Origin: Verrucomicrobiota bacterium
Lineage (GTDB): Bacteria > Verrucomicrobiota > Verrucomicrobiia > Opitutales > Opitutaceae
Direction: 5' to 3'
Assembly (NCBI GenBank): GCA_018239675.1
Contig: JAFEGX010000142.1
Location: 1-35,278, forward strand
Length of the DNA stretch: 35,278 nt
Part shown: one piece after another, positions 6,359 through 33,995 of the stretch
Numbering within the stretch: position 1 is the first letter of the stretch
Layout: every line of letters starts with the position of its first letter
The notes under the pieces: generated by a model
Told to the model about the DNA's origin: nothing
Seen by the model: only the letters and a program-made list of their open reading frames with translations
Databases searched by the model: none
Translations under genes and position numbers: made by a program

Positions 6359-6360
6359 TC

Positions 6361-13582: not shown

Positions 13583-13732
13583 TTCCGGATTTTGGATTCC
13601 GGATTCTGATTTCTCGGCCGCAGGTGTGGGTTCGGTAGCCCGCATGCCGAACATCGGGCTCTTTCCACGCTGAGCTCGATCCGACACCACGTAGCGCCAT
13701 GCTCCGGAATCCGGATTTCGGAATCCGGAATC
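13581..13732. repeat. Large nested inverted repeat between small exported protein and mutarotase genes
   Basis: Outer arms 13581-13607 and 13706-13732 pair over 27 bp with five mismatches (GATTCCGGATTTTGGATTCC type, itself built of tandem GATTCCGG units). An inner stem AGCCCG (13637-13642) / CGGGCT (13655-13660) is nested inside. The left arm overlaps the last two bases of the upstream stop codon, and the right arm ends 7 bases before the next start. It fills almost the whole 157-base gap. It could be a folded RNA element, a terminator, or a non-autonomous mobile repeat. Confidence 0.75.
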
Positions 13733-13739
13733 AACCAAC

Positions 13740-18987: not shown

Positions 18988-19105
18988 GGATGGCAGGAGC
19001 GGCGGCACGCATGCCGGACACCGAGAGTCTGGCCGGGCGGATTGCGGCGCCACCCATTCGGCACCAAGCGATCGACGGTGGACCGGGATCCGGCGGCGGG
19101 ATGGA

Positions 19106-20602
19106 TCATGCGAAACGCAGCGCGGCCACGGAGCCCGGAGGCAGCGTGACCGTCGTGGTGGAGCCGCTCACCCGCGCACCCGCCAGCGGCCGGGTCGTCA
19201 CGGCACGGGGCTGGTCGTAGGTGTTGCACGTCGTCAGGACCGGCGTCGCGAGCAGGCGCGCGTCGGCGAGCTTCGCCGCGCGGCCGGCGAGCTCGATCGC
19301 GAGCTCGGCGGGGGCGGCGGGATCGGTGTTGCAGGCTGTGACGTTCACGGCGCCGTCCGCCGCGAGCGAGGCGGTGGCCGAGACGCCCGGATAGTCGATG
19401 CCCTCGTGTCGCGCGTGGGCGGCGTCGCAGAACACCGGGAGGCGCTTTGCGTCGTGGTGCGCGAGGTACAGGGCGAACACGTCCCAGGTCGGCGTGAGCA
19501 CGAGCCGGCCGGCGCCCTCCTCGGTGAGGGCCACGGCCTGGAGCACGTTGACCGTTTGGGCGAGATTGGCGAGGCGGACGCGCTCGCAGTGGTTGATGAA
19601 GATGTTGAGGGTGAGCGAGGCGAGCACGGCGTCGCGGATCGTCTGCTGCTGGTGGAGAAAGCCCGGGTTGGTGCCGGGCTCGACCGCGTACCACGAACCC
19701 CATTCGTCGACCACCAGGGCGGTCTTGGCGTCGGGGTCGTAGCGGTCCATGGCGGCGCGGTGGCGGCGGACGTAGTCATCCATCTTCCATCCGAGGGCCA
19801 TGACCGACTTCCAGCCGGCGTGGTCGAAGCCCGTGGCCGGGTGCCGCGGCGGCCAGTCGCCCGGCACGGTGTAGTAGTGCAGCGAGAGCCCCTGCATCAT
19901 CGAACCGCCGATCGGGCCCTTGAAACACTCGCGCATCATCACGTCCGTCCAGTGGTAGTCGTCGTTGCGCGCACCGCTCGCGACCCGGTACAGCGGGGCG
20001 TTCGGGAAATCCCGGGTGTAGGTGGCGAAGCGCCGGTACTCGTGAGCGTAGTACTCGGCAGTCATGTTGCCGCCGCAGCCCCACGTCTCGTTGCCCACGC
20101 CCCAGAGCCGGACCTTCCACGGGTCGCGGCGCCCGTTGGCCGCGCGCTGCTCGGCCAGCGAGCCGCCGGCGGCGTTGCAGTACTCGACCCAGTCGCGCAG
20201 CTCGGCCGGGGAACCACTGCCGACGTTGCCGGCGAGATAGGGCTCGCAGCCGACCTGCTCGCACAGGTCGAGGAACTCGTGCGTGCCGACGGTGTTGGGC
20301 TCGATCACGCCGCCCCAGTGGGCGTTGATCCGCCGCGGCCGGCGGTCGCGCGGGCCGATGCCCTCGCGCCAGTGGTAATCGTCCGCGAAGCAGCCGCCCG
20401 GCCACCGGAGGTTGGGCACCCGGATCTGGCGGAGCGCGGCCACCAGGTCGCTGCGCCAGCCGCGGACATTCGGGACCCGCGCGTCCTCGCCCACCCAGAG
20501 ACCGTCATAGATGCAGCGGCCCAGGTGCTCGGAAAAATGACCGAAGATATGGCGGTCGATCGTCGGACCGGGCTCGCCGGCGTGAATGCAGAGGCGGGGC
20601 AT
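19106..20602 (-). CDS. GH51 alpha-L-arabinofuranosidase
   Basis: 498 residues, the normal length. N-terminal IDRHIFGHFSEHLGRCIYDG and LRWPGGCFADDYHW are strong GH51 signatures. Acid/base Glu172 lies in GVGNETWG and nucleophile Glu300 in VVDEWGSWY. C-terminal residues form the usual beta-sandwich. It cleaves alpha-L-arabinofuranosyl residues from arabinan, arabinoxylan or arabinogalactan oligomers; without a signal peptide it acts in the cytosol. It is 53 bases downstream of toroid protein A and 118 bases upstream of GH127, so the three are probably co-transcribed. The ATG follows a CU-rich leader (CCACCCCCGCCTCCCC). Confidence 0.94.
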   Translation of the reverse strand: MPRLCIHAGEPGPTIDRHIFGHFSEHLGRCIYDGLWVGEDARVPNVRGWRSDLVAALRQIRVPNLRWPGGCFADDYHWREGIGPRDRRPRRINAHWGGVIEPNTVGTHEFLDLCEQVGCEPYLAGNVGSGSPAELRDWVEYCNAAGGSLAEQRAANGRRDPWKVRLWGVGNETWGCGGNMTAEYYAHEYRRFATYTRDFPNAPLYRVASGARNDDYHWTDVMMRECFKGPIGGSMMQGLSLHYYTVPGDWPPRHPATGFDHAGWKSVMALGWKMDDYVRRHRAAMDRYDPDAKTALVVDEWGSWYAVEPGTNPGFLHQQQTIRDAVLASLTLNIFINHCERVRLANLAQTVNVLQAVALTEEGAGRLVLTPTWDVFALYLAHHDAKRLPVFCDAAHARHEGIDYPGVSATASLAADGAVNVTACNTDPAAPAELAIELAGRAAKLADARLLATPVLTTCNTYDQPRAVTTRPLAGARVSGSTTTVTLPPGSVAALRFA

Positions 20603-20655: not shown

Positions 20656-22563
20656 TCAGGGCACGACGCTGTCGGTGATCGTCAGGGTGTTGAAGTCGAG
20701 CACGCGCTTCAGGTGGCCGTGGGTGAGGGTGAGCCGACGCGAGTATTTCGCGGCGTTCAGATAGGGACCCTCAAAGAGCTGCCAGCGCGAGTAGTCGACG
20801 GTCTGACCGTCCACCTGGGGCGGCTGGCCGTAGGTTGCGACGACCTGCTTGCCGCGGAGCGTGGTGAACTTCACCGTCGGGTTCGGCTCGAGGCTGAACG
20901 CGAGCGGCAGCGCCCGGATGGCGGCCTTGAACGCGTCGAAGCTCGGGAACTCGTCCATGCTGGCCGCCTGGACGATCGTGCCGTTCTTCAGGTGCGGGCT
21001 GTAGAGGCGGCGGTCGCCGGTCTCGGCCCGCTCGCCGGTCCACGACGACTTGATGGCGGCGATCGGCTGCAGCTCGTATGGCGCGAGCGGCCGGTAGGCG
21101 AGGTAGGCGCGGCCGCCCTGCGCGAAGATCCAGCCGGACGAGTCGACCGCAAAATGCTCGAGGTCCTTCGAGAAGAAACCGTTGATGTGAGGGAAGCGCG
21201 TGCCGGGCGGAATGTTGTACAGCGCGATCACCGTATCGAGATCCTGGAACACCTGCTCGAAGCGCGAGCCGCCGAGCAGCTTGTCCGGGGAGTCGTAGGA
21301 GGCTTTGCCCTCCTTCGTGACGCCCTGCATCATGTGGTCCGGCAGCTCGCAGAAGTAGGTCTGCATGTCGAACGACGACGACACCGGGTGCATCGAGAAC
21401 ATCGTGTTGTGGCGGCCGCGCGGATCGGGCACGTCCCAGGTCACGTCCCAGATGTGGGTCTGGATCGGGTCGGACATGCCGCCCTGGTAGGAGCCCACGG
21501 CGTAGTCGCGGCGCGTGTAGTTCTGCTTGTAGATCGGAGCCATCAGCACGTCGCTGTTGCGCCAGCGGCGGCGGGTCCGCTTGAGGTCGCGCTGGAGGAA
21601 GTCCTGGTCGCGGTCGACGCCGATGCGGTAGATCACCTCGGGCAGCTCGTAGTTCCTCGCGGCGGCGGCGAAGTAGATGCCCCAGCCGCCGTAGCCGGCG
21701 GGCGGCGGCGTGTTGCCGAGAAGCAGCCAGCTGAAGAACGACGACAGGCAGTTCCAGCGCTCGAGGACGCTGACGTCATCGGTGCGGGCGTTGGCGCCGT
21801 GCAGCACGCCGTTGAGCGAGTTCGCGAACTGGTCGGCGAACAGCCAGTCGAGCATCATGTGCCCGCGCTGCCGCATCGCCGGGTCCTGCGCCCAGGAGCT
21901 GAGGAAGAGCATCGGGATCGCGTACTCGCCGATGTAATGGCTGCAGGTGAACTCCCCCTGCCCGATCGTCGTCGCGAGATCCATCCAGTGGATGAGGTAG
22001 TCGCGCGACTCGGCGAGGTTCTCGGCCGAGCTCTTGCCGTTGTACCAGCTCGAAGCCGGCTCGTTCGGGTACAGCTCGGAGATCAGGTACAGCGACGTGT
22101 AGTACATCGCCCAGTGGTTCTCGGTGTCACCGCGCAGCTGCATCTGCGAGGTCCACGCCGTGCGGATGGCCTGCTTGGCGTCGGCCGACAGCTGGTCGCG
22201 CCCGAGGTAGGCCACGCCCACCACCGGGAACATCCAGAACGGCCCGCTGCCGGGCTCCTTCATCTGGGCGATCACGCTCCGCGAGCACAGGTCGGCGTCC
22301 TCGTGGCGCGCCAGCTTCGCGGCAATCGCGCCCATGTCGGGGAGGAGTTCGCCGGGCTTGAGCTGCCCGACGCGCCACGCCAGCACCTCGTCGATGCGGC
22401 GGAAGTATTCCTGGCGGCGGAGCGCCGGATCGGTCACGACGGCCCGCGAGGGCGGCGGCGCTTCAAAGGACGGCTGGGCGGAGAGCGGGACCGAGGCCAT
22501 GGCCAGGGAGGAGGCGAGGAAAAGGAACGATTTCATGGGCGGCAAGAGGAGGGCGCGGTTCAT
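20656..22563 (-). CDS. Toroid protein A: exported lyase-like (alpha/alpha)-toroid protein, paralogue of 31130-33043
   Basis: 635 residues from ATG 22563, in an ATGA overlap with the propeller gene; an internal start at 22536 (MKSFLFLASSLAMASVPLSAQ) gives the cleaner signal peptide. I do not recognise a named family. The N-terminal 330 residues are helical, with FWMFP, GDTENHWAMYY (Asn149-His150), WYNGKSSAENLAE, HWMD, GQGEF and HYIGEY (Tyr210). The C-terminal part is beta-rich, with LLGGSRFEQ, GWIFAQGGRAYLAYRP and VDGQTVDYSRW. Asn-His followed about 60 residues later by Tyr matches the catalytic layout of PL12/PL15/PL17 toroid lyases. Prediction: an exported polysaccharide lyase or hydrolase. 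Function is inference; the paralogy is directly visible. Confidence 0.6.
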   Translation of the reverse strand: MNRALLLPPMKSFLFLASSLAMASVPLSAQPSFEAPPPSRAVVTDPALRRQEYFRRIDEVLAWRVGQLKPGELLPDMGAIAAKLARHEDADLCSRSVIAQMKEPGSGPFWMFPVVGVAYLGRDQLSADAKQAIRTAWTSQMQLRGDTENHWAMYYTSLYLISELYPNEPASSWYNGKSSAENLAESRDYLIHWMDLATTIGQGEFTCSHYIGEYAIPMLFLSSWAQDPAMRQRGHMMLDWLFADQFANSLNGVLHGANARTDDVSVLERWNCLSSFFSWLLLGNTPPPAGYGGWGIYFAAAARNYELPEVIYRIGVDRDQDFLQRDLKRTRRRWRNSDVLMAPIYKQNYTRRDYAVGSYQGGMSDPIQTHIWDVTWDVPDPRGRHNTMFSMHPVSSSFDMQTYFCELPDHMMQGVTKEGKASYDSPDKLLGGSRFEQVFQDLDTVIALYNIPPGTRFPHINGFFSKDLEHFAVDSSGWIFAQGGRAYLAYRPLAPYELQPIAAIKSSWTGERAETGDRRLYSPHLKNGTIVQAASMDEFPSFDAFKAAIRALPLAFSLEPNPTVKFTTLRGKQVVATYGQPPQVDGQTVDYSRWQLFEGPYLNAAKYSRRLTLTHGHLKRVLDFNTLTITDSVVP

Positions 22564-23573
22564 TGCCCCTTCCGGGGCACAAAGACGAAGTCATATACGG
22601 TCGAGCCCTCGAGGCCCGCCGTCTGCCAGGTGCGGCCGAAGTCGGACGAGACGTGGATCGTTCCCTGGTAGAAGCTGAGGTAAAGTCGCCCGTCATCCGG
22701 GTCGATGCCGACGCGGAACAGGTGGTCCTCCGGCGGCAGGCCGGCCGTCCGCGCCGTCCAGGTGCGGCCGCCGTCCTCGCTCACCAGCAGCCCGTAGTGC
22801 CAGCTCGCGATCGCGAGGCGCTGTGGGTTGGTTGGGTCGAACGCCACGTTGTAGAGCGCCTCGGCCGCCGGCACCGCGGCGAGCTTCTGCCAGGTGCACC
22901 CGCCGTCGCGCGACTCAAACGCCCCGTCGCTCTGCGTCACCGCCAGCCAGCGCCGCGGGTCGTGCGGCGACTGCTGGATGTCGTCCACGGTGGCGCTCGT
23001 CGGGAGCACCCGCCGCCAGTTCGCGGCGCCGTCCTCGGTGAGGTAGATCCCCGACTCGCAGCCGGCCAGGACGCGGCCCGCCTGCGTGCGGTCGACCTCG
23101 ATGGTCTGGGTGTATTTGCCGCGGTCCGGCAGCCCCTGCTCCCGCCGCGGCCAGGTCGCGCCGGCGTCGGGCGACACGGCCACGCCGTCGGGCAGCGCGA
23201 GGTAGATGTGGTCCGGGGCGTTTGGATCCAGGCAGATGTCCTTCGGCTCGGTCATGTCCCAGCTGGTCGCGACGCGCCACCGTTCGCCGCCGTTCCGGGA
23301 GGACATCGCGCCGTTCAGCGTCGCGGCGTAGCAGACCTGCGGGTTCCGCGGGTCGGCCGTGAGCGCGAACAGGCCCGTGAAGTTCGAGCCAAGGTGCTGG
23401 AACGTGCCGTCGGGCTGGCGGCGATAGAGGCCGTTGAGCGTGACCAGCTTCGAGCCGATGACGTAGTTCTTGTTAATCGCCGCGCAGAGGTAGAGGTCGT
23501 GCGCGGGCGCGGCGGATAACGCCGTGCCCGCAAGCAGGGCAAACACGGCGAGGGCGGATGGCAGGGAGGTCAT
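22560..23573 (-). CDS. BNR propeller A: exported Asp-box beta-propeller protein
   Basis: 337 residues from ATG 23573, which gives a signal peptide (SALAVFALLAGTALSAAPA). The rest is a beta-propeller of the BNR/Asp-box, sortilin/Ycf48-like type, with at least six Asp-box-like turns: SRNGGERW, SPDAGATW, TEDGAANW, SRDGGCTW, SEDGGRTW and SSDFGRTW. No sialidase arginine triad is visible, so a binding or scaffold role is more likely than hydrolysis. It ends VYDFVFVPRKG, like propeller B (AYDFVFLPG). Its stop overlaps the start of toroid protein A (ATGA 22560-22563), implying the two proteins are made together and probably work together in the periplasm or at the cell surface. Confidence 0.78.
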   Translation of the reverse strand: MTSLPSALAVFALLAGTALSAAPAHDLYLCAAINKNYVIGSKLVTLNGLYRRQPDGTFQHLGSNFTGLFALTADPRNPQVCYAATLNGAMSSRNGGERWRVATSWDMTEPKDICLDPNAPDHIYLALPDGVAVSPDAGATWPRREQGLPDRGKYTQTIEVDRTQAGRVLAGCESGIYLTEDGAANWRRVLPTSATVDDIQQSPHDPRRWLAVTQSDGAFESRDGGCTWQKLAAVPAAEALYNVAFDPTNPQRLAIASWHYGLLVSEDGGRTWTARTAGLPPEDHLFRVGIDPDDGRLYLSFYQGTIHVSSDFGRTWQTAGLEGSTVYDFVFVPRKGQ

Positions 23574-23635
23574 GACGGGGAAAGGTGTTCTGGCATTGCG
23601 GCGGCGGGGGCGGGCGGGCATTGCTGGCACCGCAC
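23574..23635. promoter_or_regulatory. Divergent gap between BNR propeller A and exported RidA
   Basis: A 62-base, very GC-rich gap that must hold the promoters of both genes. The only feature seen is an 8-base direct repeat GGCATTGC at 23592-23599 and 23617-23624. No -10/-35 elements are evident. Confidence 0.2.
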
Positions 23636-24166
23636 ATGAAAAAGCTACTGGTGGTCCTGGGTTGGGTGATGGCGGGCGTGACCAGCCTGCCGGCAACGGA
23701 GTCGGCCACGCCCGAGCAGAAGCTCGCGGCGCTGGGCCTGGCGCTGCCCGCGGTGCCGCCGGCCGTGGCGAACTACGTGCCGGCCGTGCGCAGCGGCCGG
23801 CTGGTGTTTCTCGCCGGCCAGATCGCGCGCGGGCCCGATGGGAAGTTTCTCGCGGGCAAGGTCGGGGCCGACTGCACCGAGGCGCGGGCGGCCGAGGCCG
23901 CCCGGACCTGCGCCCTGCAGCTGCTCGCCGCGCTGAAGGCCGAGATCGGCGACCTCAGCCGGGTCGCGCGGATCGTGCGCGTCGGCGGCTTCGTGAACTG
24001 CACGCCGGACTTCACCGCCCAGCCCAAGGTCATCAACGGCGCCTCCGACCTGCTCGTCGCCGTGTTCGGGGACCGCGGCCGCCACGCGCGCGCCGCGGTG
24101 GGCGTCGCCGCGCTGCCCGCCGGCGCGCCGGTCGAGGTCGAGATGGTCGTCGAGGTCGCGGAGTAG
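23636..24166 (+). CDS. RidA/YjgF-family protein with Sec signal peptide
   Basis: 176 residues from ATG 23636, the start that gives a signal peptide (MKKLLVVLGWVMAGVTSLPA). The remainder is a RidA-type domain: NYVPAVRSGRLVFLAGQIAR, GDLSRVARIVRVGGFVN, INGASDLLVAVFGD, RHARAAVGVAALP and VEVEMVVEV. Aligned by eye to E. coli RidA, Arg152 matches Arg105, Glu167 matches Glu120 and Tyr47 matches Tyr17, the residues used for imine/enamine hydrolysis. RidA proteins clear reactive 2-aminoacrylate-type products of PLP enzymes and normally lack export signals. It converges on an exported class-V PLP enzyme (15-base gap), suggesting the pair works outside the cytosol. It is divergent from propeller A. Confidence 0.85.
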   Translation: MKKLLVVLGWVMAGVTSLPATESATPEQKLAALGLALPAVPPAVANYVPAVRSGRLVFLAGQIARGPDGKFLAGKVGADCTEARAAEAARTCALQLLAALKAEIGDLSRVARIVRVGGFVNCTPDFTAQPKVINGASDLLVAVFGDRGRHARAAVGVAALPAGAPVEVEMVVEVAE

Positions 24167-24181
24167 CACCGGCGCCATCGG

Positions 24182-25477
24182 CTAGAGGTCGTGCGCCGCC
24201 GCCCGCAGCGCGGCGATCACCCGGTCGCAGTCCGCCCGGGAGTTGAACACGTGGGTGGAGACCCGCACCGCCTGCAGGCCCTGCTCCGTCACCGGCCGCG
24301 TGCGCAGCCGGTGCCGCTTCCCGAGGTAACGCGTCAGCCGGCCGGCGGTGACGTGGCGGAGGCTGAAGGTGACCATCGCGCTGCGCAGCACTGGATCGCG
24401 CGGCGACAGCACCGTCAGGCCCGGGATGTCCTCGATCCCGGCGGCCAGGCCGGTGGCCAGCCCGCGGCTCCACGCCGCGATGCGGTCGCGCCCGAGCTCG
24501 AGCTGGAACCGGATCGCCTCGGCCAGCCCGGCGATGAGCCCGAGGTTGCGCGTGCCGTACTCGTGCCGCACCGCGCTGTCCTCAAGCTTGATCACGCCCG
24601 GCAGGAACGGCAGGTCGCCGCTGTACGAGCCGATCTCCACCGGCGCCACCTGCTCCAGGCGGTCGCGCCGGATGAAGAAGCCGCCGGTCTCGTGCGGCCC
24701 GCCAAGCCACTTGTGGCCGCTGAAGGCGTAGGAGTCGCAGCCCAGCGCGCCGACGTCCACCGGGATCATGCCCACCGCCTGCGCACCATCCACGTGGAAC
24801 CAAGCGCCATGCTGGTGGGCAAGGTCGGCGATCGCCCGCACCGGCAGCACCAGGCCGGTCGTGCAGACGATGTGGCTCACCTGGATCACCTTCGTGCGCG
24901 GCGTGATCAGCGCCGCGATGCGGGCCACGTTGGCCTCGGCGCTGGTGACGTCGGGCTCAAACAGCTTCACCACGACGCCGTGCCGCTGCACCTGGTTGAA
25001 CCAAGGGTAGGAGCCGCCCGGGTGGGCGTGGGTCTCGAAGATCACCTCGTCGCCCGGGTTCAGCGCGAGTCCGGCCGCGACGATCGAGTTGCCCTCGGTG
25101 GTGTTGCGCGTGAAGCACACCTCGTCCGGGCGCGCGCCGAGGAACGAGGCCAGCGCGCGCCGCGCCGGCTTGATGCGGCGCTCGTGCTCCGGCTCGGAGT
25201 GCTCCTGCATCTCCGTCATGGTCCCGTACACGCGGTCGAGCACGCGCTGCGGCGTGGGCCCGAGGCCGCCGGTGTTGAGGTACAGCGGGTCGTCGCGGAG
25301 CGGGTACTGCGCCCGGACGGCCCGCCAGTATTCATCCGGGTGGGCCGGGTCGTAGGCTGGCAGGGCCGGAGCCGGGGCAACTGGGGCGGGCAGGGCCGAC
25401 AGCGGGCCCGCGGCGGCTAAGGCGCCGAGGGCGCCGAGGCCCATGCGGTGGACAAAAGTGCGACGATCAAGCGACAT
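24182..25477 (-). CDS. Tat-exported class-V aminotransferase-like PLP enzyme (copy 1)
   Basis: 431 residues from ATG 25477. The N-terminus DRRTFVHRMGLGALGALAAAGPLSALPA is a twin-arginine signal. The body is a fold-type I, class-V PLP enzyme of the isopenicillin-N-epimerase/cysteine-desulfurase-like group: LYLNTGGLGPTP, FTRNTTEGNSIVAAG, HAHPGGSYPW, FHVDGAQAVG (Asp230, pyridine nitrogen) and SGHKWLGGPHETGG with Schiff-base Lys256. Such enzymes load PLP in the cytosol before Tat transport. Reaction unknown: amino-acid epimerisation, lyase or transamination are all possible. It lies 58 bases after a close paralogue and converges on the exported RidA, which could treat its imine products. Confidence 0.88.
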   Translation of the reverse strand: MSLDRRTFVHRMGLGALGALAAAGPLSALPAPVAPAPALPAYDPAHPDEYWRAVRAQYPLRDDPLYLNTGGLGPTPQRVLDRVYGTMTEMQEHSEPEHERRIKPARRALASFLGARPDEVCFTRNTTEGNSIVAAGLALNPGDEVIFETHAHPGGSYPWFNQVQRHGVVVKLFEPDVTSAEANVARIAALITPRTKVIQVSHIVCTTGLVLPVRAIADLAHQHGAWFHVDGAQAVGMIPVDVGALGCDSYAFSGHKWLGGPHETGGFFIRRDRLEQVAPVEIGSYSGDLPFLPGVIKLEDSAVRHEYGTRNLGLIAGLAEAIRFQLELGRDRIAAWSRGLATGLAAGIEDIPGLTVLSPRDPVLRSAMVTFSLRHVTAGRLTRYLGKRHRLRTRPVTEQGLQAVRVSTHVFNSRADCDRVIAALRAAAHDL

Positions 25478-25535
25478 GGGAAAAGAAGGGCGGAGGGACG
25501 GCGGCGCCGTAATGACGCCGCGGGACGGAGGGAGG

Positions 25536-26831
25536 TTACGCCTTGCGGAGCACCTCATCGAGCGCGCCCACCAAGCGGTCGCACTCCTCGGGTGAATTGA
25601 ACAGGTGGGTCGAGATCCGGATCGCGTTGAGATCCACCTCGGAGACCGGGCGCGTGCGCAGGTGGTGGTCGCCGAGCAGGCGGCCAAAGATCTGCTCGTA
25701 GGAGAGCCGCGGCGTGCGGAAGGTGATCATCGAGCCGCTCAGCGCGGGATCGGCCGGCGTGAGAATCTCGACGCTGTCGATCCGCTCGAATCCGGCGCGC
25801 ACGCGCTGGGCCAGCGCGCGGCCGCGGGCGGCGATGCGGTCGCGGCCGATCTCGGTCTGAAACCGCGTGGCCTCCGCGAGCGCCAGCACCGAGGCCGCAT
25901 TGCGCGTGCCGTACTCGAAGCGGTGCGCGCCCGGCGTGTAGGTGAACGGACCCGGATTCTTGAGGTTCATGTCGTCGCTCGAGTAGGCGCCGACATGCCG
26001 CGGCGTGACCTCCGCAATCCGCTCCTCGCGGATCCAGAGGATGCCGGTCTCATGGGGCCCGCCGATCCACTTGTGGCCGCTGGTGGCGAACGAGTCGCAG
26101 CCCAGCGCGCGCAGGTCCACCGGGATCATGCCCGCGGACTGCGCGCCGTCGACGTGGAACCAGAGCCCGTGCCGGTGCGCGAGCTCGGCGATCGCGGGCA
26201 CCGGCAGGAGGATGCCGGTCGGCGACGTGACGTGGGAGACCTGGACGACGCGCGTGCGGGGCGTGATGAGCGCGGCGATGCGCTCGACGTTCCCCGCGGC
26301 ACTCGTCGGGTCGGGCTCGAAGGTCTTCACCACGATGCCGTCGGCGCGCTGGCGGTTGAGCCATGGGAACGAGCCGCCCGGGTGGGCGTGAGACTCGAAG
26401 ATCACCTCGTCCGCCGCCTGCAGCTCGAGGCCGCCCGCCACGATGCAGGTGCCCTCGGTGGTGTTGCGCGTGAAGCAGATCTCCGCCGGGCGGGCGCCGA
26501 GGTAGGCGGCGACCAGCACCCGGGCCTGCGCGAAAAAGTCGTGGCCGGTCTCCACGCGTTCCTGCAGCTGGCGGCTCGCGAGGGTCAGCATGTCGAGCAC
26601 CCGCCGCGGCGCGGGCCCGAGACCGCCGGTGTTGAAATAGATCCGCTCTGGGGTCATCGGGAACTGCGCCCGCACCTGGCGCCAGAAGCCCTCGGGATCG
26701 TCGCCGGTCCAGGTCGGGGTCGCGGCCGACTGGTAGCCGTCGGCCTCCATGGCGCTGCGTCCCCCGGTCGCGAGCAGCCCGAGGGCGCCGGCACCCAGCC
26801 CGCGGAGAAAGGTTTTGCGGTCAACGTTCAT
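25536..26831 (-). CDS. Exported class-V aminotransferase-like PLP enzyme (copy 2)
   Basis: 431 residues, starting at ATG 26831 in an ATGA overlap with the DUF6807-like gene. It is plainly a paralogue of the next gene, sharing NTGGLGPAPRRVLD, FTRNTTEGT, SHAHPGGSFPW, WFHVDGAQSAGMIPVD (Asp228) and SGHKWIGGPHETG (Schiff-base Lys254). Its signal begins DRKTFLRGLGAGALGLLA: the Tat second arginine is replaced by lysine, a change that some Tat substrates tolerate but that may lower or alter export. The two copies differ most around residues 270-310 (substrate loop, NLKNPGPFTYTPGAHRFEYG here), which suggests different substrates. Reaction not assignable. Confidence 0.87.
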   Translation of the reverse strand: MNVDRKTFLRGLGAGALGLLATGGRSAMEADGYQSAATPTWTGDDPEGFWRQVRAQFPMTPERIYFNTGGLGPAPRRVLDMLTLASRQLQERVETGHDFFAQARVLVAAYLGARPAEICFTRNTTEGTCIVAGGLELQAADEVIFESHAHPGGSFPWLNRQRADGIVVKTFEPDPTSAAGNVERIAALITPRTRVVQVSHVTSPTGILLPVPAIAELAHRHGLWFHVDGAQSAGMIPVDLRALGCDSFATSGHKWIGGPHETGILWIREERIAEVTPRHVGAYSSDDMNLKNPGPFTYTPGAHRFEYGTRNAASVLALAEATRFQTEIGRDRIAARGRALAQRVRAGFERIDSVEILTPADPALSGSMITFRTPRLSYEQIFGRLLGDHHLRTRPVSEVDLNAIRISTHLFNSPEECDRLVGALDEVLRKA

Positions 26832-27688
26832 AAGGAGCGGAAGGTCAGGGTGTGGTCGATCACCAGGTCCGCTCCGGGGGCCAGCGGGAGATCCTGGTCG
26901 AACTGCACAGGCAACGCCGCCAACGGGTAGTTGCGGCGCACGAACCAGTGCAGCGGTCCGGGATGGTTCTCAAAGCGAATGATAACGCGGTGCAGCGTTT
27001 CATCAAGCTGCCCGTGCCATTCCATCCAGCGGGCCGCCGCGCCGTGCACGGCGGGGACCCCCTCGCGCCCGCCCTCGGCCACCACCTTGATCGTCGGGTC
27101 GAGGTGGTCGTCCAGCAGTTCGCGCGCGCCGCGGAATTCGAGCCCGGTGTAGTGCGAGCCGGCCAGGCCGCCGCCCGAGTGGGGATTGCCCAGCACCAGC
27201 GTCCCGGCCGTGACGTTCCGGATCCGGGCCTGCCAGTGCAGCGCCCAGGTCCGCGCCGCGGCGTCCACCGTGACCCCCAGCGTGCGCGTCTCGCGCAGGA
27301 GTGTCTCCGCCAACCGGCGCCACTCGAGCGTGTGCGCGAGCGTCGCCGCCGCGCCCGCCGCCTCGAGCCGCTCCCACGCCACATGCTGCTGCACGCCGTG
27401 GTCGTCGCGCCACTTGTAGCCATCGGGCCGGAGGCAGGTCGGGCCGCCCCAGAAGTTCGCGCCGGAAACCTGGTTGAGCGTGAAGCAGAGCCCGTGATGC
27501 CACGGGTGGTCGTTCGGGCGGAAGTTTGTCAGGGTGTCGCCGTCGAGCGAGTTGAGCGGATGGAAGTACGGCTTCGGCGACTCCTTCAGGTCGACCTCGG
27601 GCACGTAGACGTAGCGCGCGAGGAGGTCCCCGCCCCAGAACAGGCGGACGGACCGGCCGGTCTCGTGCTCGAGGCGGAGGCGGCTCAT
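26828..27688 (-). CDS. DUF6807 / PmoA-like protein
   Basis: 286 residues. It resembles the DUF6807 family, often annotated as PmoA family although unrelated in evidence to methane oxidation. Diagnostic segment: PYFHPLNSLDGDTLTNFRPNDHPWHHG (first 20: PYFHPLNSLDGDTLTNFRPN), then ENHPGPLHWFVRRNYP near the C-terminus. The conserved HPWHHG histidines could bind a metal or sugar. Members are common beside Gfo/Idh dehydrogenases and glycoside hydrolases in Planctomycetota, Bacteroidota and Verrucomicrobiota. No signal peptide. It is coupled on both sides by 4-base ATGA overlaps, with GH78 upstream and the PLP enzyme copy 2 downstream, so it belongs firmly to this operon. Biochemical role unknown. 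Confidence 0.75.
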   Translation of the reverse strand: MSRLRLEHETGRSVRLFWGGDLLARYVYVPEVDLKESPKPYFHPLNSLDGDTLTNFRPNDHPWHHGLCFTLNQVSGANFWGGPTCLRPDGYKWRDDHGVQQHVAWERLEAAGAAATLAHTLEWRRLAETLLRETRTLGVTVDAAARTWALHWQARIRNVTAGTLVLGNPHSGGGLAGSHYTGLEFRGARELLDDHLDPTIKVVAEGGREGVPAVHGAAARWMEWHGQLDETLHRVIIRFENHPGPLHWFVRRNYPLAALPVQFDQDLPLAPGADLVIDHTLTFRSL

Positions 27689-30120
27689 GCCAGGGCCACG
27701 GCCTCCTCAAACCGTCCGCCGGTGAAGCTGCGGCGGGTTCCGCCCGGGAACGTGACGGCGGCCTCGACGCCGGCGGGCACACTGGCCGCAAGGTGGAACC
27801 GGTCCCCGGCGATCCGCCAGGCAACCTCGACCAGGCCGAGCGGCGTGCAGACGCTGCCGGCGGCATGGGTGAGGCCGAAGCGGTGCGGCTCGATCCGGAT
27901 CTTTGCAAAGCCGGGCTCGGCCGGCGTGACCCCGAGGATCCGCTGCTGGAACTCCAGCACCGGATGGGCGCTCCACGCGTGGCAGAGCGAGCGCCAGTAG
28001 CTGTTTTCCTCGACGAAGGTGGAGAGCCCGTAGCCGATCGATTCATGCCACGGCCCGAGGTGCTGCGGCACGTCGTCGGCCCGGCCGCAGCGGGCGAGCG
28101 CCGCGAAGCCGGTGTGCCACCAGAAGAAGGAGCCCGGCGCAAGCTGCGGATCGGTCGGGAACCGGCGCAGCATGATCGCGCGCTCCCGCTCCCCCGCCAC
28201 GCCCGCGACGATCGCCCAGGCGTTGCCGTACTGGCTGATCTCGGGTCCGCCCGGGCGGTCGAAATAGAGCCCCTCGGCCTCCGACCAGAAGCGGGCATGC
28301 GCCTGGCGGCGGGCGGCGTCGGCCTCCCGCGCATAACCTTCCGCCTCCGCGGTCGCGCCCACGTGCCGGAGCAGCAGCGCCGCCTCGTCGAGGGCGTTGA
28401 TGTACTGCGCGGCATGGATGCAGGTCGGCCCGGTGTCGGCGCCGGGCACCACGCCGCGCGGCCACCACGGGCACCAGTCGGTGATGTTCCAGTAGGGCAT
28501 CCTCGCCGGCAGGCCGTCCCCGTCGGTGTGGCGGCGGTACCAGTCGAGCACCGCCCGCACGCCCGGGAGCAGGTCGCGCAGCGTGGCGCGGTCGCCGGTG
28601 CAGTAGAAGTAATCCTTGAGGTTCGTGATCCAGTGGATGCTCCACGCCGGGATGACCTGCACGAGGCGCGACGGGTAGCGGGCCTGGGTGAGGCCGTCGG
28701 AGAGGCGCGACCAGTCGAAGTGGTACAGTGCCTGGCGGCTCAGGCGGTAGTCGCCGGTGGTGAGCATGCCGAGCTTCGACGTGATCATCGTGTCCCCGGC
28801 GTACTGCATCTGCTCGTAGTGCGGGCAGTCCTCGAAGGTCTCGTGCGAGCACATCCGCATGGTGTGCAGGCCGACCGCCCAGATCCGGTCGAGCGCGGGA
28901 TCCGACGAACGGAAAGTCGCCGTGACGCGGTACGGGTAGGCGGTGAACCGGTGCTGGATCCCGTGCAGCGTGAGCGGCGCGGATCCCACCTTGACCTGCA
29001 GCCCGATGTAGCGGAACGCCCGCCAGTGCAGCGGCTCGAACACCTCGTCGCGCCCGGACGGCTCCCAGATGTCCGACCAGCCGGTCACCTCGCCGCGGCG
29101 GTCGAAGGTCCAGCCGCGGCTCTCGTCGGCAAAATGCGAGGCGAGGTTCGCGAGCGACTGCTGGCGGCCGAGGAGCTTCGCGCCCGGCGTGTCCCAGCGC
29201 AGGCGCAGCGCCTCCGCATAGGTGAGCCGCACGACGCTCCCGGCGCCGCCCGCGGCCGTGAGCCGCGGATAGGCCGTGGTCAATACGGCGGCGTCGAGCA
29301 CGAGCGTGACGGCGGTGCCGGGCGCCAGCGTCAGGGGCCGCCCCTGGGTGAGCAGGTCGTGCCATCCGGCCGGGACCGGCGCCCCGCCGGTGAGGAAGGC
29401 GTCGGTGAAAGGGACCGGGGCGCCCTCCTCGAGCATTGGCACCATGCGCGGCATCAGGCCGTACGGGCTCGCGGGGTCGCGCCGATTCTCGAGCAGTTCC
29501 GCCCGGAACAGCACATGCGCCGCGGGCCACGCGGTGTCGTCAAACTCGGGCGTGTTCCAGCCGACGGGGATCAGCCGCGACACGCGGTGCTCGAAGTAGC
29601 CGAGGTAACCCTCGAAGGTAGTGTTCTCGTTCTGAAACCGGTGCGCCCGGTCGACGGCGACCTTCCACGCGGCGTCGGTGCGCAGGTCGGTGGTGGCGGC
29701 GCCCTGCCGCAGCATGCCTTCGAGCACGAAGCCGCCCGTGTAGGTCATCACCGAGCACGGCGGGCCAAGCAGCGCGGGCCGGTGCGCAACGCGCGACATG
29801 TCGAGCACGAGCGCGGCCAAGACGTTGCGGCCGCGGCGCAAGTGCGGCGCGAGGTCGAAGGTCTCGTAGAAGTGGTGGTTGACGTCACCCTTCGCCGGTC
29901 CGCGCCCCACCAGCACGCCGTTGCAGAAGAACAGGTACCGGCTGTCGGCCGACACGTGCACCGTGAGCGCGGCCGCGGCGGGATCCGCCACCTCGAACGG
30001 GCGGCGGAAGTAGCGGACCTGGTAGTGCGACGGCGAGGCCGCCTCGGGCGGCGGCGCCGAGTGCGAGCCCTCGGCGGACCAGATCCAGGAGGCGGAATTG
30101 ACGAAGGGTTTTTCGGACAC
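27685..30120 (-). CDS. GH78-type alpha-L-rhamnosidase
   Basis: 811 residues from GTG 30120, chosen because the family starts with ...SASWIW near the N-terminus; upstream in-frame codons reach into the propeller gene. Domains: carbohydrate-binding-like beta domains (about 1-395; HYQVRYFRRPFEV, DSRYLFFCNGVLVGRGPAKGD), then an (alpha/alpha)6 barrel from about 400 with the conserved TFEDCPHYEQMQYAGDT (428-444), whose Glu436 is in the position of the GH78 catalytic acid region. A short beta-sandwich ends it (GGTRRSFTGGRFE). It cleaves terminal alpha-L-rhamnose from pectin side chains or glycosides; no signal peptide is seen. It is 14 bases after propeller B and overlaps the DUF6807 gene by 4 bases. 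Confidence 0.87.
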   Translation of the reverse strand: MSEKPFVNSASWIWSAEGSHSAPPPEAASPSHYQVRYFRRPFEVADPAAAALTVHVSADSRYLFFCNGVLVGRGPAKGDVNHHFYETFDLAPHLRRGRNVLAALVLDMSRVAHRPALLGPPCSVMTYTGGFVLEGMLRQGAATTDLRTDAAWKVAVDRAHRFQNENTTFEGYLGYFEHRVSRLIPVGWNTPEFDDTAWPAAHVLFRAELLENRRDPASPYGLMPRMVPMLEEGAPVPFTDAFLTGGAPVPAGWHDLLTQGRPLTLAPGTAVTLVLDAAVLTTAYPRLTAAGGAGSVVRLTYAEALRLRWDTPGAKLLGRQQSLANLASHFADESRGWTFDRRGEVTGWSDIWEPSGRDEVFEPLHWRAFRYIGLQVKVGSAPLTLHGIQHRFTAYPYRVTATFRSSDPALDRIWAVGLHTMRMCSHETFEDCPHYEQMQYAGDTMITSKLGMLTTGDYRLSRQALYHFDWSRLSDGLTQARYPSRLVQVIPAWSIHWITNLKDYFYCTGDRATLRDLLPGVRAVLDWYRRHTDGDGLPARMPYWNITDWCPWWPRGVVPGADTGPTCIHAAQYINALDEAALLLRHVGATAEAEGYAREADAARRQAHARFWSEAEGLYFDRPGGPEISQYGNAWAIVAGVAGERERAIMLRRFPTDPQLAPGSFFWWHTGFAALARCGRADDVPQHLGPWHESIGYGLSTFVEENSYWRSLCHAWSAHPVLEFQQRILGVTPAEPGFAKIRIEPHRFGLTHAAGSVCTPLGLVEVAWRIAGDRFHLAASVPAGVEAAVTFPGGTRRSFTGGRFEEAVALA

Positions 30121-30134
30121 GATCGCGGGGCGGC

Positions 30135-31133
30135 TCAGCGGCCGGGCAGGAAAACGAAATCGTAGGCATAGGCGCCGTAGAGGCCGCCATCGCGCCACGT
30201 GACGCCGAGGTCGTCGGAATAGAAGGTGCCCTCCTCGAAGGTTGAGGCCCAGAGCCGGCCGCGCACGTCGGGGTCAAAGGCCACGACGAAAACATTGCGC
30301 ACGGGCAGGCCCGCGGTGCGGTCGGTCCAGGTCGCACCGCCGTCGGTCGAGACCCGCACGCCGGCCCCCCACCCGCCCACGGCCATCCGGGCCGGATCCT
30401 GCGGCGCGAGCGTGGCGGTGTACAGATTCGCGGTCGCCGATCCGGGATCGGTCGCGGTCCAGGTCGCACCACCGTCGCGCGACAGCCAGGCGCCGCGGCC
30501 CTGGGTGGCGGCCAACAGCAGGCGCGGGTCCGCCGCACTCTGCACGAGGCGGAGCACCGTGACGTCCGGGAATGCGACGCGCTGCCACGAGCGCGCCCCG
30601 TCCGTGGAAACCGCGAGACCGTGCTCGAGGCCGAGCAGCACGCGCCCGGGCTTCGTCGTGTCCGCGACCAGCGTCTGGCAGAAAAGGCGGTCGAGTCCGG
30701 CCTGCGCGAGCGTCCACGTCGCGCCCCCGTCGGTGGAGCGCAGCGGCCCCCACGCCGTCGCGGCGTAGACCTGGTCCGGGTTGCCGGCGTCGTACGCGAA
30801 AGCGCGCACGTCGGCGACCTCCCAGCCCGTGGTCTTGCGCCAGGTGCGGCCGCCGTCGGCGGTGCGCACGACCCCGTCGGCACTTGCCAGCAGCATCACC
30901 TCGGGGTGGGACGGACTCCGCGCGACGCTCAGCACCCCGAGGATGCGCGGACCGAACAGCGTCCACTGGCCGGCGGCGTCGCGGACGTAGATTCCGGAGT
31001 CGAGCGGCGTCGGCGAGTTCCGCTGCGCCTTGGTCATCGCGACGGCGGCATACAGGCGGCTGGCCGGCGTGGCGGCGACGGCGACCGAGGCGGAACCCAG
31101 CAGGGCAAGGAGCAGCAGCGCGCGGCGGATCAT
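30135..31133 (-). CDS. BNR propeller B: exported Asp-box beta-propeller protein
   Basis: 332 residues from ATG 31133 (signal peptide MIRRALLLLALLGSASVAVAA). Six Asp-box turns are visible: TADGGRTW, STDGGATW, STDGARSW, SRDGGATW, STDGGATW and SDDLGVTW, marking a BNR/sortilin-like propeller. It shares overall organisation and its C-terminus (AYDFVFLPG) with propeller A at 22560-23573, so the two are paralogues. The start overlaps the stop of toroid protein B (ATGA 31130-31133); it is followed closely by GH78. No sialidase catalytic residues were found. A substrate-binding or complex-forming role in the periplasm or at the surface is likely. Confidence 0.78.
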   Translation of the reverse strand: MIRRALLLLALLGSASVAVAATPASRLYAAVAMTKAQRNSPTPLDSGIYVRDAAGQWTLFGPRILGVLSVARSPSHPEVMLLASADGVVRTADGGRTWRKTTGWEVADVRAFAYDAGNPDQVYAATAWGPLRSTDGGATWTLAQAGLDRLFCQTLVADTTKPGRVLLGLEHGLAVSTDGARSWQRVAFPDVTVLRLVQSAADPRLLLAATQGRGAWLSRDGGATWTATDPGSATANLYTATLAPQDPARMAVGGWGAGVRVSTDGGATWTDRTAGLPVRNVFVVAFDPDVRGRLWASTFEEGTFYSDDLGVTWRDGGLYGAYAYDFVFLPGR

Positions 31134-33043
31134 GGCTGGGTGGAGACCGCGGACTCGGTCCGGGCATTGTGGTTGAAGTCGAGGAGGAGGCGGTCCGCGC
31201 CGTGCCGGATCTCGAGCTGGCGGCTGCCGCGGGCCGACTGGCCGAACGGGCTGTCGAAGAGCGGCCAGTGCGGGTAATCCACCGCCTGGCCGTTGACCGC
31301 GGGAGTCTCGCCGTAACGCGCGCGCACCACGTGGCCGTCGAGCGTGGTGAAGGTCGCCTCCGGCACCGCCGCCACGGAGAACCGCAGCGGCAGGGCGCGC
31401 ACCGCGGCCTTGAACGCGTCGTACGAGGCGAAATCGCGGCGCGGCGCGACCTGCACGACATAGCCGTTGCGGAGCGCGGAGCTGACGTAGCACCGGTGAC
31501 CGGTGCCCCAGTCGGAGAAGCCGGTGCTGATGAATCCGCCCGCTCCGCCGCGGAGCAGGCCGGTCCAGTCGTTGGGCTTCCACTCGCCGGCGGCGAACGG
31601 CCGGTACGCGATGTAGGCGGGGCCGCCCTGGGCGAAGATCCAGCCCGAGGCGTCCTCCTCGACCTGCTTGAGATCGCGGGAGAAGAACACCGTCACGAGC
31701 GGAAACCGGGAGCCCGCGGGAATATCGTAGAGCGCGACGAGCGCGGCGCCCTGCTGGCTGATCTGCTCGTAGCGCGAGCCGCCGGGCAGCTTGTCCGGCG
31801 TGTCGTAGTCGGCCTTGGAGCGGGCGATGAGGTCCGTGACCGTGTCCCAGTCGCTGTTGAAGAACATCGTGCCCTCCAGCGGCGAGGAGTAGGGCTGCGT
31901 GCCGAAGAAGGTGTTTGCCGCGCGCTTGGCCGGCAGGTCGGTCTTCCAGATCAGGCTCCAGGTCTGCTGCTGGATCGGCTGGAGCAGGCCGCCCTGAGAG
32001 GAGCCGAGGACAAAGTCAGGGTCGACGTAGGTGTACTTGTAGACCGGAACGGTGCGCTTGTCGCCGACCACAAAGGAATCGGGCCCCGCATGGCGCATCC
32101 GCCACCGGGTGCGCTTGAGCTCGCGCTCAACGTACGGGTGCGAGCGGTCGCGCGCGATGCGCTCCAGGATCGGCGGCGGCGTGTAGCCGCTGAGGGCGAG
32201 CAGCTGGACGGTGCCGCTCTGCACCCGTTCGCCGAATCCAAACAGCAACCAGGCCAGGGCCTGGGACGGCGTCTGGCCGGGGGACACGATCTGTCGCGGA
32301 TAAATGCGGCTGTGGGCGCCGCCATAGTACCCGTCCAGCGACTCGACCGCGTAATCATATATAATGTAGTCGAGCAACTGGTGGGCCCGCAGGCGGAGCG
32401 GGACATCCTCGGCCCAGCCGGCCAGCAGCGAAAGGGCGATGACGTACTCCTCGATGTAGTTCGGCGAGTCGTACTCCCCCTGCCCGTGGGTGACCGTGAC
32501 ATCCATCCAGTGCTCCAGGTACCCGCGCGCCTCCGCGAGGTTCTCGGCCGAGGAGCGACCGTTGAACCACTGCTCCGGCCCGGCGCCGGGGGCATACTGG
32601 GCGGCCAAGTAAAGGGACGAATAGTACATGGCCCAATGGTTCTCGGTGTCGCCGCGGCTCGGCCAATAGGTCCGCCACAACTCGGCGATCCGGGCCCGGG
32701 CCGCGGCATCGAGGGTCTTCCCGCCATTCATCATCACTGTCACCATCGGGAACATCCAGAACATGTTCCCGTCCTGCTTGCCCGAGGTGAGGCGCATGAA
32801 CCGCGCCAGGGCGGCCTCGCGCTTTACATCCCGCTGGAGGCAGGCGGCGACGTCAAAGTGGCTGCCCTTGGCTGGGTCGGCCGGGTCGATCGCCGCCACC
32901 GAGGCGGCCAGAACCTCCTGCTGACGGTCCTGATATCCCCGGAGAATCTCGGCATCCGTCGCCGCCCGCAGGCCGGGGAGGCTGGCGACGGCCACCATGA
33001 CCAAACTCATGATGCGACGCCTGTTTGCCGGGTGCAGAATCAT
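31130..33043 (-). CDS. Toroid protein B: exported lyase-like (alpha/alpha)-toroid protein, paralogue of 20656-22563
   Basis: 637 residues from ATG 33043; the n-region NRRRIMSLVMVAVASLPGLRA is a signal peptide. It matches toroid protein A along its length: FWMFP, GDTENHWAMYYSSLYL (Asn135-His136), WFNGRSSAENLAE, HWMD, HGQGEY, NYIEEY (Tyr196), GGLLQPIQ, TPDKLPGGSRYEQ, GWIFAQGGPAYIAYRP and VNGQAVDYPHW. The Asn-His to Tyr spacing is 61 residues from the Asn in both proteins. I cannot assign a described family. The inferred fold is a helical toroid plus beta-sandwich, as in PL12/PL15/PL17 lyases. It is the first gene of its operon and overlaps propeller B by 4 bases. Divergent from the isomerase-like gene. 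Confidence 0.6.
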   Translation of the reverse strand: MILHPANRRRIMSLVMVAVASLPGLRAATDAEILRGYQDRQQEVLAASVAAIDPADPAKGSHFDVAACLQRDVKREAALARFMRLTSGKQDGNMFWMFPMVTVMMNGGKTLDAAARARIAELWRTYWPSRGDTENHWAMYYSSLYLAAQYAPGAGPEQWFNGRSSAENLAEARGYLEHWMDVTVTHGQGEYDSPNYIEEYVIALSLLAGWAEDVPLRLRAHQLLDYIIYDYAVESLDGYYGGAHSRIYPRQIVSPGQTPSQALAWLLFGFGERVQSGTVQLLALSGYTPPPILERIARDRSHPYVERELKRTRWRMRHAGPDSFVVGDKRTVPVYKYTYVDPDFVLGSSQGGLLQPIQQQTWSLIWKTDLPAKRAANTFFGTQPYSSPLEGTMFFNSDWDTVTDLIARSKADYDTPDKLPGGSRYEQISQQGAALVALYDIPAGSRFPLVTVFFSRDLKQVEEDASGWIFAQGGPAYIAYRPFAAGEWKPNDWTGLLRGGAGGFISTGFSDWGTGHRCYVSSALRNGYVVQVAPRRDFASYDAFKAAVRALPLRFSVAAVPEATFTTLDGHVVRARYGETPAVNGQAVDYPHWPLFDSPFGQSARGSRQLEIRHGADRLLLDFNHNARTESAVSTQP

Positions 33044-33131
33044 AATAGGGGTTGTCTAGCGAAGGCGAAGATTCAACATGAGTCCGCTTCGTTCAGTATT
33101 TCAACCTGCTTTTTCTATGAAATTTCAACCC
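33044..33131. promoter_or_regulatory. Divergent promoter region (toroid B operon / isomerase-like gene)
   Basis: An 88-base, relatively AT-rich gap between divergent starts. The hexamer TTCAAC occurs three times in direct orientation at 33072-33077, 33100-33105 and 33124-33129. A weak dyad CGAAG/CTTCG (33066-33070, 33087-33091) is also present. It is the likely control point of the - strand operon, possibly for the LacI protein encoded 1 kb away. Confidence 0.35.
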
Positions 33132-33995
33132 ATGAATACCCCGAAGAAATCAACCGGTCCCCGCCTGATCCAGTGCGCCACCCCGTGGTCAATGATGCAG
33201 TATCCCAGCCCCGGAAAGGAGTGGTCGCTCGAGCGGAAAATGACGGAGATGAAGGCCGCGGGCTTTGACGGCATCGCCGCCGTGGTGAACCCCGAGATCC
33301 AGGCGATCGCGCAACGGCTGGGCCTAGTGATGATGGGCGGATTTGACGGCTCGAAAGTCAGTTCCGCGCGGAAGCAGATCATCGCCCAGCGCGACCTGGG
33401 GGTGCACTACATGAACGTGCAGCTCCTCGACCACGACACGCCGCCGGCGGTGGCGGCGAAGCTCGCGGTGCGCCTGATCGAGATGTCGGACGAGCTCGGC
33501 GTGGGCGTGCACGTCGAGACGCACCGCGACACGGCGACGGAAACGCCGGAGAAATTCGAGGAGATCGCCCGCCTCTTCCAGCGGGCGACCGGCCGCCTGA
33601 TGCCGGTCACCTGGGACCATTCCCACTTCGCGGTCTCGAAGCACATCCTGCCGCAGCACTACTCCGCCCGGCTGCTGGCCTGGCCGAAGCTGATCCAGCA
33701 TTCCTCGCTGTTCCACCTGCGGCCCTTCAACAGCCAGCACTGCCAGATCCCGGTGACGAACGGCCGCGGCCAGCTCACCCCGGAGTTCAAGGACTACCTG
33801 GCCTTCGTGGAGGATCTTTTCACACTCTGGCTGCAGGGTCCAAAGCCGCGCGGCGAGCTCTGGACTTGCCCCGAACTCGGCATGAGCCACGGCTACCACG
33901 TGAGCACCAACCCGCACCCCTGGCCCGACGCCATCCGCGCCCGCCAGGAGTACGCCGGCGCCTGGCGCCGCGCGCTCAAACGGGCGAAGAAATAA
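33132..33995 (+). CDS. Xylose-isomerase-like TIM-barrel protein (sugar phosphate isomerase/epimerase family)
   Basis: 287 residues from ATG 33132; upstream in-frame ATGs at 33078 and 33117 would add up to 18 residues that do not look like family sequence. It is an AP-endonuclease-2/xylose-isomerase-like TIM barrel. Candidate metal ligands fall in the expected order: Glu129 (VHVETHRDT), Asp162 (TWDHSHF), His195 (LFHLRPFN) and Glu248 (CPELGMSHG). Such proteins isomerise or epimerise keto/aldo sugars or inosose derivatives in the cytosol. It is divergent from the toroid B operon and 117 bases upstream of the LacI regulator. Precise substrate unknown. Confidence 0.8.
   Translation: MNTPKKSTGPRLIQCATPWSMMQYPSPGKEWSLERKMTEMKAAGFDGIAAVVNPEIQAIAQRLGLVMMGGFDGSKVSSARKQIIAQRDLGVHYMNVQLLDHDTPPAVAAKLAVRLIEMSDELGVGVHVETHRDTATETPEKFEEIARLFQRATGRLMPVTWDHSHFAVSKHILPQHYSARLLAWPKLIQHSSLFHLRPFNSQHCQIPVTNGRGQLTPEFKDYLAFVEDLFTLWLQGPKPRGELWTCPELGMSHGYHVSTNPHPWPDAIRARQEYAGAWRRALKRAKK

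Follow-up and report, generated by a model that had tools for sequence, protein, structure and literature searches.

A stretch of 35,278 nucleotides from a Verrucomicrobiota bacterium of the Opitutaceae (contig JAFEGX010000142.1 of assembly GCA_018239675.1; the whole stretch is referred to below as the window) carries on its minus strand two modules, A and B, each of which couples a protein with a predicted (alpha/alpha) toroid fold (toroid) to a BNR/Asp-box propeller protein (propeller). The toroid-propeller pairing is old and widespread, and on balance we lean towards the view that the two proteins are subunits of an exported uronate lyase or epimerase system for glycan degradation. The elements of the two modules are as follows.

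31130..33043, minus strand: toroid B (T_B), 637 amino acids, predicted lyase superfold, PIQQQTW replacing PIQxHxW, signal-like N-terminus
30135..31133, minus strand: propeller B (P_B), 332 amino acids, BNR/Asp-box propeller, signal-like N-terminus
31130..31133, minus strand: ATGA, four-base stop/start overlap from T_B to P_B
22560..23573, minus strand: propeller A (P_A), BNR/Asp-box propeller, signal-like N-terminus
20656..22563, minus strand: toroid A (T_A), 635 amino acids, same family as T_B, PIQTHIW motif, signal-like N-terminus
22560..22563, minus strand: ATGA, four-base stop/start overlap from P_A to T_A
32639..32641, minus strand: codon of T_B N135, candidate catalytic Asn
32456..32458, minus strand: codon of T_B Y196, candidate catalytic Tyr
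31964..31966, minus strand: codon of T_B Q360; His occupies the same position in A-type toroids
21454..21456, minus strand: codon of T_A H370, aligned with T_B Q360

The coordinates of these four codons were derived by hand from residue numbers. The start of propeller A was set at the ATG at 23573; a TTG open reading frame (ORF) extends to 23696, and the analyses of this protein ran on 22560-23576, one codon longer than 22560-23573. For toroid A another start is possible 27 bases further in; the ATGA start is preceded by GGAAGGGG.

The initial annotation had described a duplicated pair of full-length toroid paralogues and six-Asp-box propellers, joined by overlaps of exactly four bases and swapped in order between the copies, and this description was borne out. 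Sequence alignment gave 40.4% identity over 629 columns for the toroids (E 1e-141) and 39.1% over 322 columns for the propellers (E 3e-69). Six Asp boxes were counted by pattern in propeller A, and six plus one degenerate box in propeller B. The ATGA overlap is present at 22560-22563 and at 31130-31133, and reading along the minus strand the order is toroid B-propeller B in one module versus propeller A-toroid A in the other.

A scan of genome contigs yielded 101 confirmed matches; the best 80 were kept and correspond to 73 loci, and the locus set is therefore biased toward near relatives. By their record titles these loci belong to Opitutaceae and other Verrucomicrobia/Opitutae, Bacteroidetes, Rhodothermales, Ignavibacteria and KSB1, although the titles are labels of metagenome-assembled genomes (MAGs) and partly unreliable, as the nearly identical toroids of L021 (KSB1) and L023 (Bacteroidetes) illustrate. 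A same-strand propeller was found within 150 nucleotides of the matched part for 100 of 110 toroid hits, counting partial hits and repeats from the window's own genome. The initial annotation had raised the question whether toroid homologues usually lack a BNR neighbour; they do not, and with wider limits a propeller adjoins 87 of 90 full-length toroids. Two of the three exceptions (L064 and L023) lie at contig ends, and L003, from the same genome as the window, is a third toroid paralogue; it too lies near a contig end, but its same-genus counterparts, L112 and L113, have no propeller in about 7 kb on each side. For the third toroid paralogue of this genome at L111:327-2582 (contig C116), no propeller was seen in the 9 kb examined; it keeps the conserved N, E, Y and R residues described below and, by eye, the motif His, and lacks the RGD stretch.

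A sample of 387 genomes from the phylum, apparently one and the same draw used twice, gave a similar picture. The toroid profile matched 55 genomes at E 1e-10, of which 23 scored at or below 1e-240 and the next best at 1.3e-36, while the propeller profile (matches to 1e-40) matched 25 genomes, 23 of them at or below 1e-99 and the remaining pair at 5e-50 and 5e-44. The core toroid and the core propeller occur in an identical set of 23 of the 387 genomes, the lists having been compared by eye and the propeller profile having been built from toroid-linked propellers, which favours matching sets. In all 23 core loci (L081-L103, the window's own locus included) the propeller is present.

Natural gene fusions provide a second line of evidence. 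In L012 a B-type toroid and propeller are joined in one frame, with an Ala/Pro-rich linker where the signal peptide of the propeller was, and three further genomes (L127, L128 and L129) have the same toroid-propeller fusion. These four fusions, all of B type, may stem from one event. The reverse fusion, propeller then toroid, is found in L065, an Ignavibacterium MAG. No other sequence observation speaks as strongly for a joint function as the existence of fusions in both orders. The fused genes of L127, L128 and L129 show no obvious signal peptide by eye, and their products may be intracellular; the 12-14 kb examined around them contain no match to GH78, DUF6807 or an aminotransferase.

A structural model of the L012 fusion (957 residues) reached a predicted local distance difference test score (pLDDT) of 87.4 and a predicted template modelling score (pTM) of 0.84, versus a pTM of approximately 0.61-0.67 expected for a freely floating propeller. 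With assumed intra-toroid errors, the value of 0.84 corresponds to a mean propeller error of roughly 4-7 Å as seen from the toroid, and suggests a defined docking of the two domains in the model. This result bears indirectly on the other refuting condition named in the initial annotation, a lack of confident interfaces in predicted complexes. The underlying alignment (A5) came from trying different sets of rows, ahead of any structural result, until the propeller rows aligned with the propeller half; an alignment combining the fusion, toroids and propellers (A4) had been discarded because its propeller rows fell on the toroid. Among the 50 fold matches listed, no PDB chain is described as having both domains.

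The AlphaFold2 model of toroid B (pLDDT 92.8, pTM 0.92) is helical first and then mostly beta. This predicted two-domain architecture, an (alpha/alpha) toroid followed by an antiparallel beta domain, is the one that characterizes the superfold of polysaccharide lyase (PL) families PL8/12/15/17/21/33/35 (Foldseek E 1e-8 to 5e-5). A Foldseek comparison with the PDB returned 21 matches at E 0.001 or below, the best being human dermatan sulfate epimerase 1 (1.1e-8) and the remaining 20 lyase chains, including xanthan lyase (2.4e-7), PL33 (3.8e-7), GAGase II (7.8e-7) and chondroitin AC lyase; several of these chains are repeat entries of one enzyme. At the sequence level the toroid has no Pfam match, its best PDB match is not significant (E 0.46) and a stray NCBIfam match has E 0.088; assignment to a named family was rejected, as neither these sequence searches nor the profile comparisons with PL8 and heparinase-type lyases gave a significant match.

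Candidate active-site residues were nevertheless identified by conservation. All 71 members and all 10 propeller-less relatives have N135, E190, Y196 and R246 (T_B numbering), some of the relatives being close kin of one another. In both hhalign alignments to PL8 and heparinase-type profile sets, made of relatives from the phylum and themselves not significant, N135 pairs with an invariant Asn of the other family, which was taken for the catalytic Asn of these families. The catalytic residues given in the excerpted sources are N238/Y291/H444 for PL33 (PMC11848413) and Asn192/Tyr246/His401 for PL35 (PMC12088678). On these numbers the Asn-Tyr and Tyr-His spacings are 53-54 and 153-155 residues in PL33 and PL35, compared with 61 (N135-Y196) and 164 (Y196 to the motif position) in the toroid; the candidate beta-domain His of the toroid was placed by this spacing alone. 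The toroids thus share with the PL33, PL35 and PL8 lyases and with dermatan sulfate epimerase 1 a predicted (alpha/alpha) toroid and antiparallel beta domain, and with PL33 and PL35, so far as the excerpts go, a candidate Asn and Tyr at comparable spacing, to which A-type toroids add a candidate beta-domain His. They differ from these enzymes in lacking a match to Pfam, NCBIfam or PDB chains by sequence and a significant profile match to PL8, and in having a fixed propeller partner, and B-type toroids differ from PL33 and PL35 also in lacking the candidate His. A further set of residues separates the members from their propeller-less relatives: R130, D132, Y141, Q188 and R311 occur in 71 of 71 members and W137 in 69 of 71, whereas each occurs in at most one of the ten relatives. 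On sequence grounds these six positions may mark the propeller partner or a different substrate.

The motif His distinguishes A-type from B-type toroids. In quick trees with Shimodaira-Hasegawa-like approximate likelihood ratio (SH-aLRT) support only, B-type toroids form one clade of 18 rows and A-type toroids one of 44, both starred, and the propeller tree has corresponding B and A clades of 20 and 54 rows. All 44 A toroids have the His of PIQxHxW, recognised by pattern in 38 and by reading the printed segments in six, and 25 of the 27 toroids that belong to neither clade have it as well. None of 18 B toroids does; they have Gln (16), Glu (one) or Ser (one) instead. The fused B-type genes L127-L129 likewise have Gln. 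The two copies, which the initial annotation had treated as equivalent, differ therefore at a possibly catalytic residue, and because one of them has replaced it they probably do different jobs.

The modules enclose or adjoin the following genes.

27685..30198, minus strand: alpha-L-rhamnosidase (GH78-like), between the modules; ORF span, start codon not fixed
26828..27688, minus strand: DUF6807 protein
25536..26831, minus strand: class-V aminotransferase-like pyridoxal phosphate (PLP) protein 1
24182..25687, minus strand: class-V aminotransferase-like PLP protein 2, paralogue of protein 1; ORF exceeds the gene
19106..20602, minus strand: alpha-L-arabinofuranosidase-like protein (called GH51 here)
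17059..19053, minus strand: beta-L-arabinofuranosidase (GH127)
15590..17803, minus strand: M28 peptidase within the ORF; ORF exceeds the gene
14620..15471, minus strand: S51 peptidase with Tat signal
33078..33995, plus strand: divergent conserved protein, read as sugar-phosphate isomerase/epimerase; no Pfam match at 0.001
34113..35153, plus strand: divergent LacI-family regulator

Read 5' to 3', the minus strand thus runs from toroid B and propeller B through GH78, DUF6807 and the two aminotransferase-like genes to propeller A and toroid A, and continues with the arabinofuranosidase, GH127 and the M28 and S51 peptidases, while the conserved gene and the LacI regulator diverge on the plus strand beyond toroid B. 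For the two adjacent PLP proteins (24182-26831), SufS and periplasmic PvdN are among the best NCBIfam matches, all below cut-off. Farther away, the plus strand at 4934-14435 encodes a PhyH protein, a sodium:solute symporter, a GFO/IDH/MocA dehydrogenase and an ABC transporter, opposite which the minus strand shows long antisense shadow ORFs; neighbour labels of minus-strand ORFs in 1931-14435 were left unused, since these are mostly shadow ORFs and the real genes lie on the plus strand.

The initial annotation had also concluded that a pair kept coupled despite reversed order implies strong selection, and this argument found no support in the form given. The absence of an upstream propeller requires four changes on the toroid tree; from the row list, these were read as a single change in the B clade plus separate ones in L026, L061 and L076. 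From these sequences the swapped order looks like one inherited event rather than repeated re-coupling, and for that reason is by itself no sign of strong selection. Nor is the four-base overlap, because such overlaps are common in this operon, occurring also between GH78 and DUF6807 (27685-27688) and between DUF6807 and the aminotransferase gene (26828-26831); in the fetched loci, ATGA was found at 44 of 116 toroid/propeller junctions. Several other accounts of module history were considered and dropped. Ignavibacterial toroid-propeller-propeller-toroid arrays were rejected as the ancestor of the window order, as L073 and L076 read as propeller-toroid units plus an extra propeller. Tandem modules as matched units agreed for 41 of 55 pairs of loci with two propeller-toroid modules, and for 29 of 36 among nine Verrucomicrobiota loci, where all seven disagreements involve L058. 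Assignment of A and B modules by similarity agreed in 75 of 96 cases, and all 21 that disagreed are loci belonging to neither clade. In the local toroid array of L132, toroid genes at 2496-4421 and 12658-14570 are split into two frames, with intact copies alongside.

Among 75 loci (the window and L003 included), many of which are too short to show the neighbours, GH78 was found in 38, DUF6807 in 37, the M28 peptidase in 25, S51 in 13, GH127 in 11 and GH51 in six, and aminotransferase matches of type 1 and type 2 in 25 and 23, respectively. Where the locus is long enough, B modules mostly form the 5' end of a GH78-DUF6807-aminotransferase-A module arrangement, L012 and L015 being exceptions. 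The non-Verrucomicrobial loci have a different content: 79 neighbour ORFs, tallied from 99 picked (most of the 20 not tallied were short or on the minus strand), include nine GH38 mannosidases, six PhyH proteins, six dehydrogenases, five class-V aminotransferases, four PfkB kinases and three FAA hydrolases. One of the nine GH38 alpha-mannosidases beside the pair lies at L061:12781-15765. As an aminotransferase is close to the pair also in L019, L021, L022, L023 and L025, five loci that belong to neither the A nor the B clade, this protein may be a third partner.

Both propellers belong to the BNR/Asp-box type, scoring 55.2 and 50.6 bits against a Pfam gathering cut-off of 33 for PF15902 and 35.3 and 43.5 against one of 27 for PF02012, with at least six Asp boxes. 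Among the matches listed, sequence and fold comparisons pointed to 3b7f (Reut_B4987), GH74, Ycf48 and DAIP, so that the nearest solved relatives include enzymes (GH74) as well as protein-binding factors (Ycf48, DAIP). GH74 enzymes have two tandem propellers that form a catalytic cleft. The proteins studied here share with GH74 xyloglucanases, NF045728 and 3b7f a BNR/Asp-box propeller by sequence or fold match, but at about 335 amino acids they are too short for two propellers (GH74 chains have about 680-780), and they score only 98.3 and 105.4 bits with NF045728 (F510_1955 glycosylhydrolase), well below its cut-off of 175. Ycf48 and DAIP are closer in form, being single propellers of similar size with both a sequence and a fold match, and the titles of their PDB entries mention parts of other proteins bound to them (D1 peptide, thermolysin fragment); their partners and context are different from those of the toroid-linked propellers.

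In the mechanism that we favour, the toroid and propeller would be exported as two subunits of one unit, as their N-termini, signal-like by eye, suggest. The toroid would abstract the C5 proton of a uronic acid with Asn neutralisation and Tyr assistance, leading to beta-elimination or epimerisation, while the propeller would dock on the toroid and shape its active site or hold the chain. The likely target is a glycan or glycoprotein that contains uronate and bears rhamnose and arabinose, because a rhamnosidase and arabinofuranosidases adjoin the pair. Module A holds the complete candidate catalytic set, and module B, which has lost the beta-domain His in every member seen, would probably be a specialised or non-cleaving partner. 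Two GH88 genes lie elsewhere in the genome, and their products could take up the lyase products. Near one pair, at L019:6750-8135, a weak match to GH88 was noted (22.6 bits versus a cut-off of 26.6), an enzyme type that would suit the product of a lyase. The two-component glycan-degrading complex proposed in the initial annotation thus stands as a two-protein unit, which adjacency and fusions support well, and gains a predicted uronate-lyase-like fold for the toroid; the propeller may in addition recruit or hold substrate.

Several observations weigh against this mechanism. The docking is derived from one summary number for a single-chain fusion with unpaired rows, and a single MAG (L065) supplied the only propeller-toroid fusion, where a sequencing error is possible. 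The 21 Foldseek matches with E of at most 0.001 have modest TM-scores (0.23-0.42), the hhalign comparisons with the PL8 and heparinase-type sets gave probabilities of 0.6 and 3.7%, and no GH88 gene was found in the scanned part of the operon. A second His, at T_B position 383, occurs in 31 of 36 A rows, 19 of 22 outgroup rows and none of 13 B rows; as the two His share the A/B pattern, either, or neither, may be the catalytic one, and module B would be altered or inactive as a lyase if either is the base or activator. Toroids have toroid neighbours instead of their own propeller in L089 and L132, and two propellers stand ahead of one toroid in several Ignavibacteria loci. Propeller-less toroid relatives also exist: distant relatives had a propeller in none of seven cases within the flanks examined, and L114-L117 have none within 15-18 kb. 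Propeller coupling is consequently a property of one clade in a larger toroid family.

A stricter form of the favoured mechanism, in which the lyase is obligately two-subunit, the propeller completes or gates the active site and module B is a pseudo-catalytic or differently specific partner, is unlikely as it stands; R130, D132, W137, Y141 and Q188, which in sequence lie near the candidate catalytic Asn and are almost constant in propeller-coupled toroids but scarce or missing in propeller-less ones, would in that case mark the active-site rim as the interface. It is also doubtful, though worth serious consideration, that the pair is merely co-inherited and co-expressed for the same polymer without contact, the propeller being a separate enzyme (GH74-like or a PL42-like lyase) or a glycan-binding protein. 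In sequence and in fold searches alike, GH74 enzymes rank among the propeller's best matches, and the excerpted source describes the PL42 rhamnose-alpha-1,4-glucuronate lyase FoRham1 as a beta-propeller that removes rhamnose caps from glucuronate (PMC8377490), a substrate type that is plausible here. Moreover, GH78, DUF6807 and the aminotransferase are also conserved in Verrucomicrobiota, some with four-base overlaps. However, the adjacency persists beyond the A and B clades, in a set of 21 loci (L023 among them is cut off ahead of the propeller), where GH78 and DUF6807 are unmatched in the flanks examined and the aminotransferase is matched in five; the fusions in both orders and the fusion pTM point to contact, and the propellers score under the NCBIfam glycosylhydrolase cut-off.

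A toroid that works as a C5-epimerase-like enzyme or as a binding protein, rather than as a lyase, appears quite improbable. Its single best fold match is the human epimerase and B-type toroids lack the motif His, but the other 20 matches at the same threshold are lyases, several of them repeat entries of one enzyme, and the candidate catalytic positions are kept in A-type toroids. Finally, the two copies could be redundant duplicates and the swapped order a random rearrangement. Their position in the same operon, their 40% identity and the repeated duplication of the unit seen in propeller-toroid-propeller-toroid arrays would agree with this; yet it is very hard to reconcile with the separate A and B clades in both quick trees (44/18 toroid and 54/20 propeller rows) and with a motif His in 44 of 44 A toroids versus 0 of 18 B toroids, and we give it hardly any weight.

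No title or abstract opening found in the open-licence PMC literature describes a toroid-propeller pair. The toroids represent a probably exported protein family with record titles from five phyla that is described in neither Pfam nor NCBIfam. It is tied to one fixed partner, and the residues and natural fusions listed here allow a test of propeller control over a lyase-fold enzyme. If the favoured mechanism is true, it would add a two-subunit design to the uronate-degrading enzymes and would aid the reading of rhamnose/arabinose/uronate operons in Opitutaceae.

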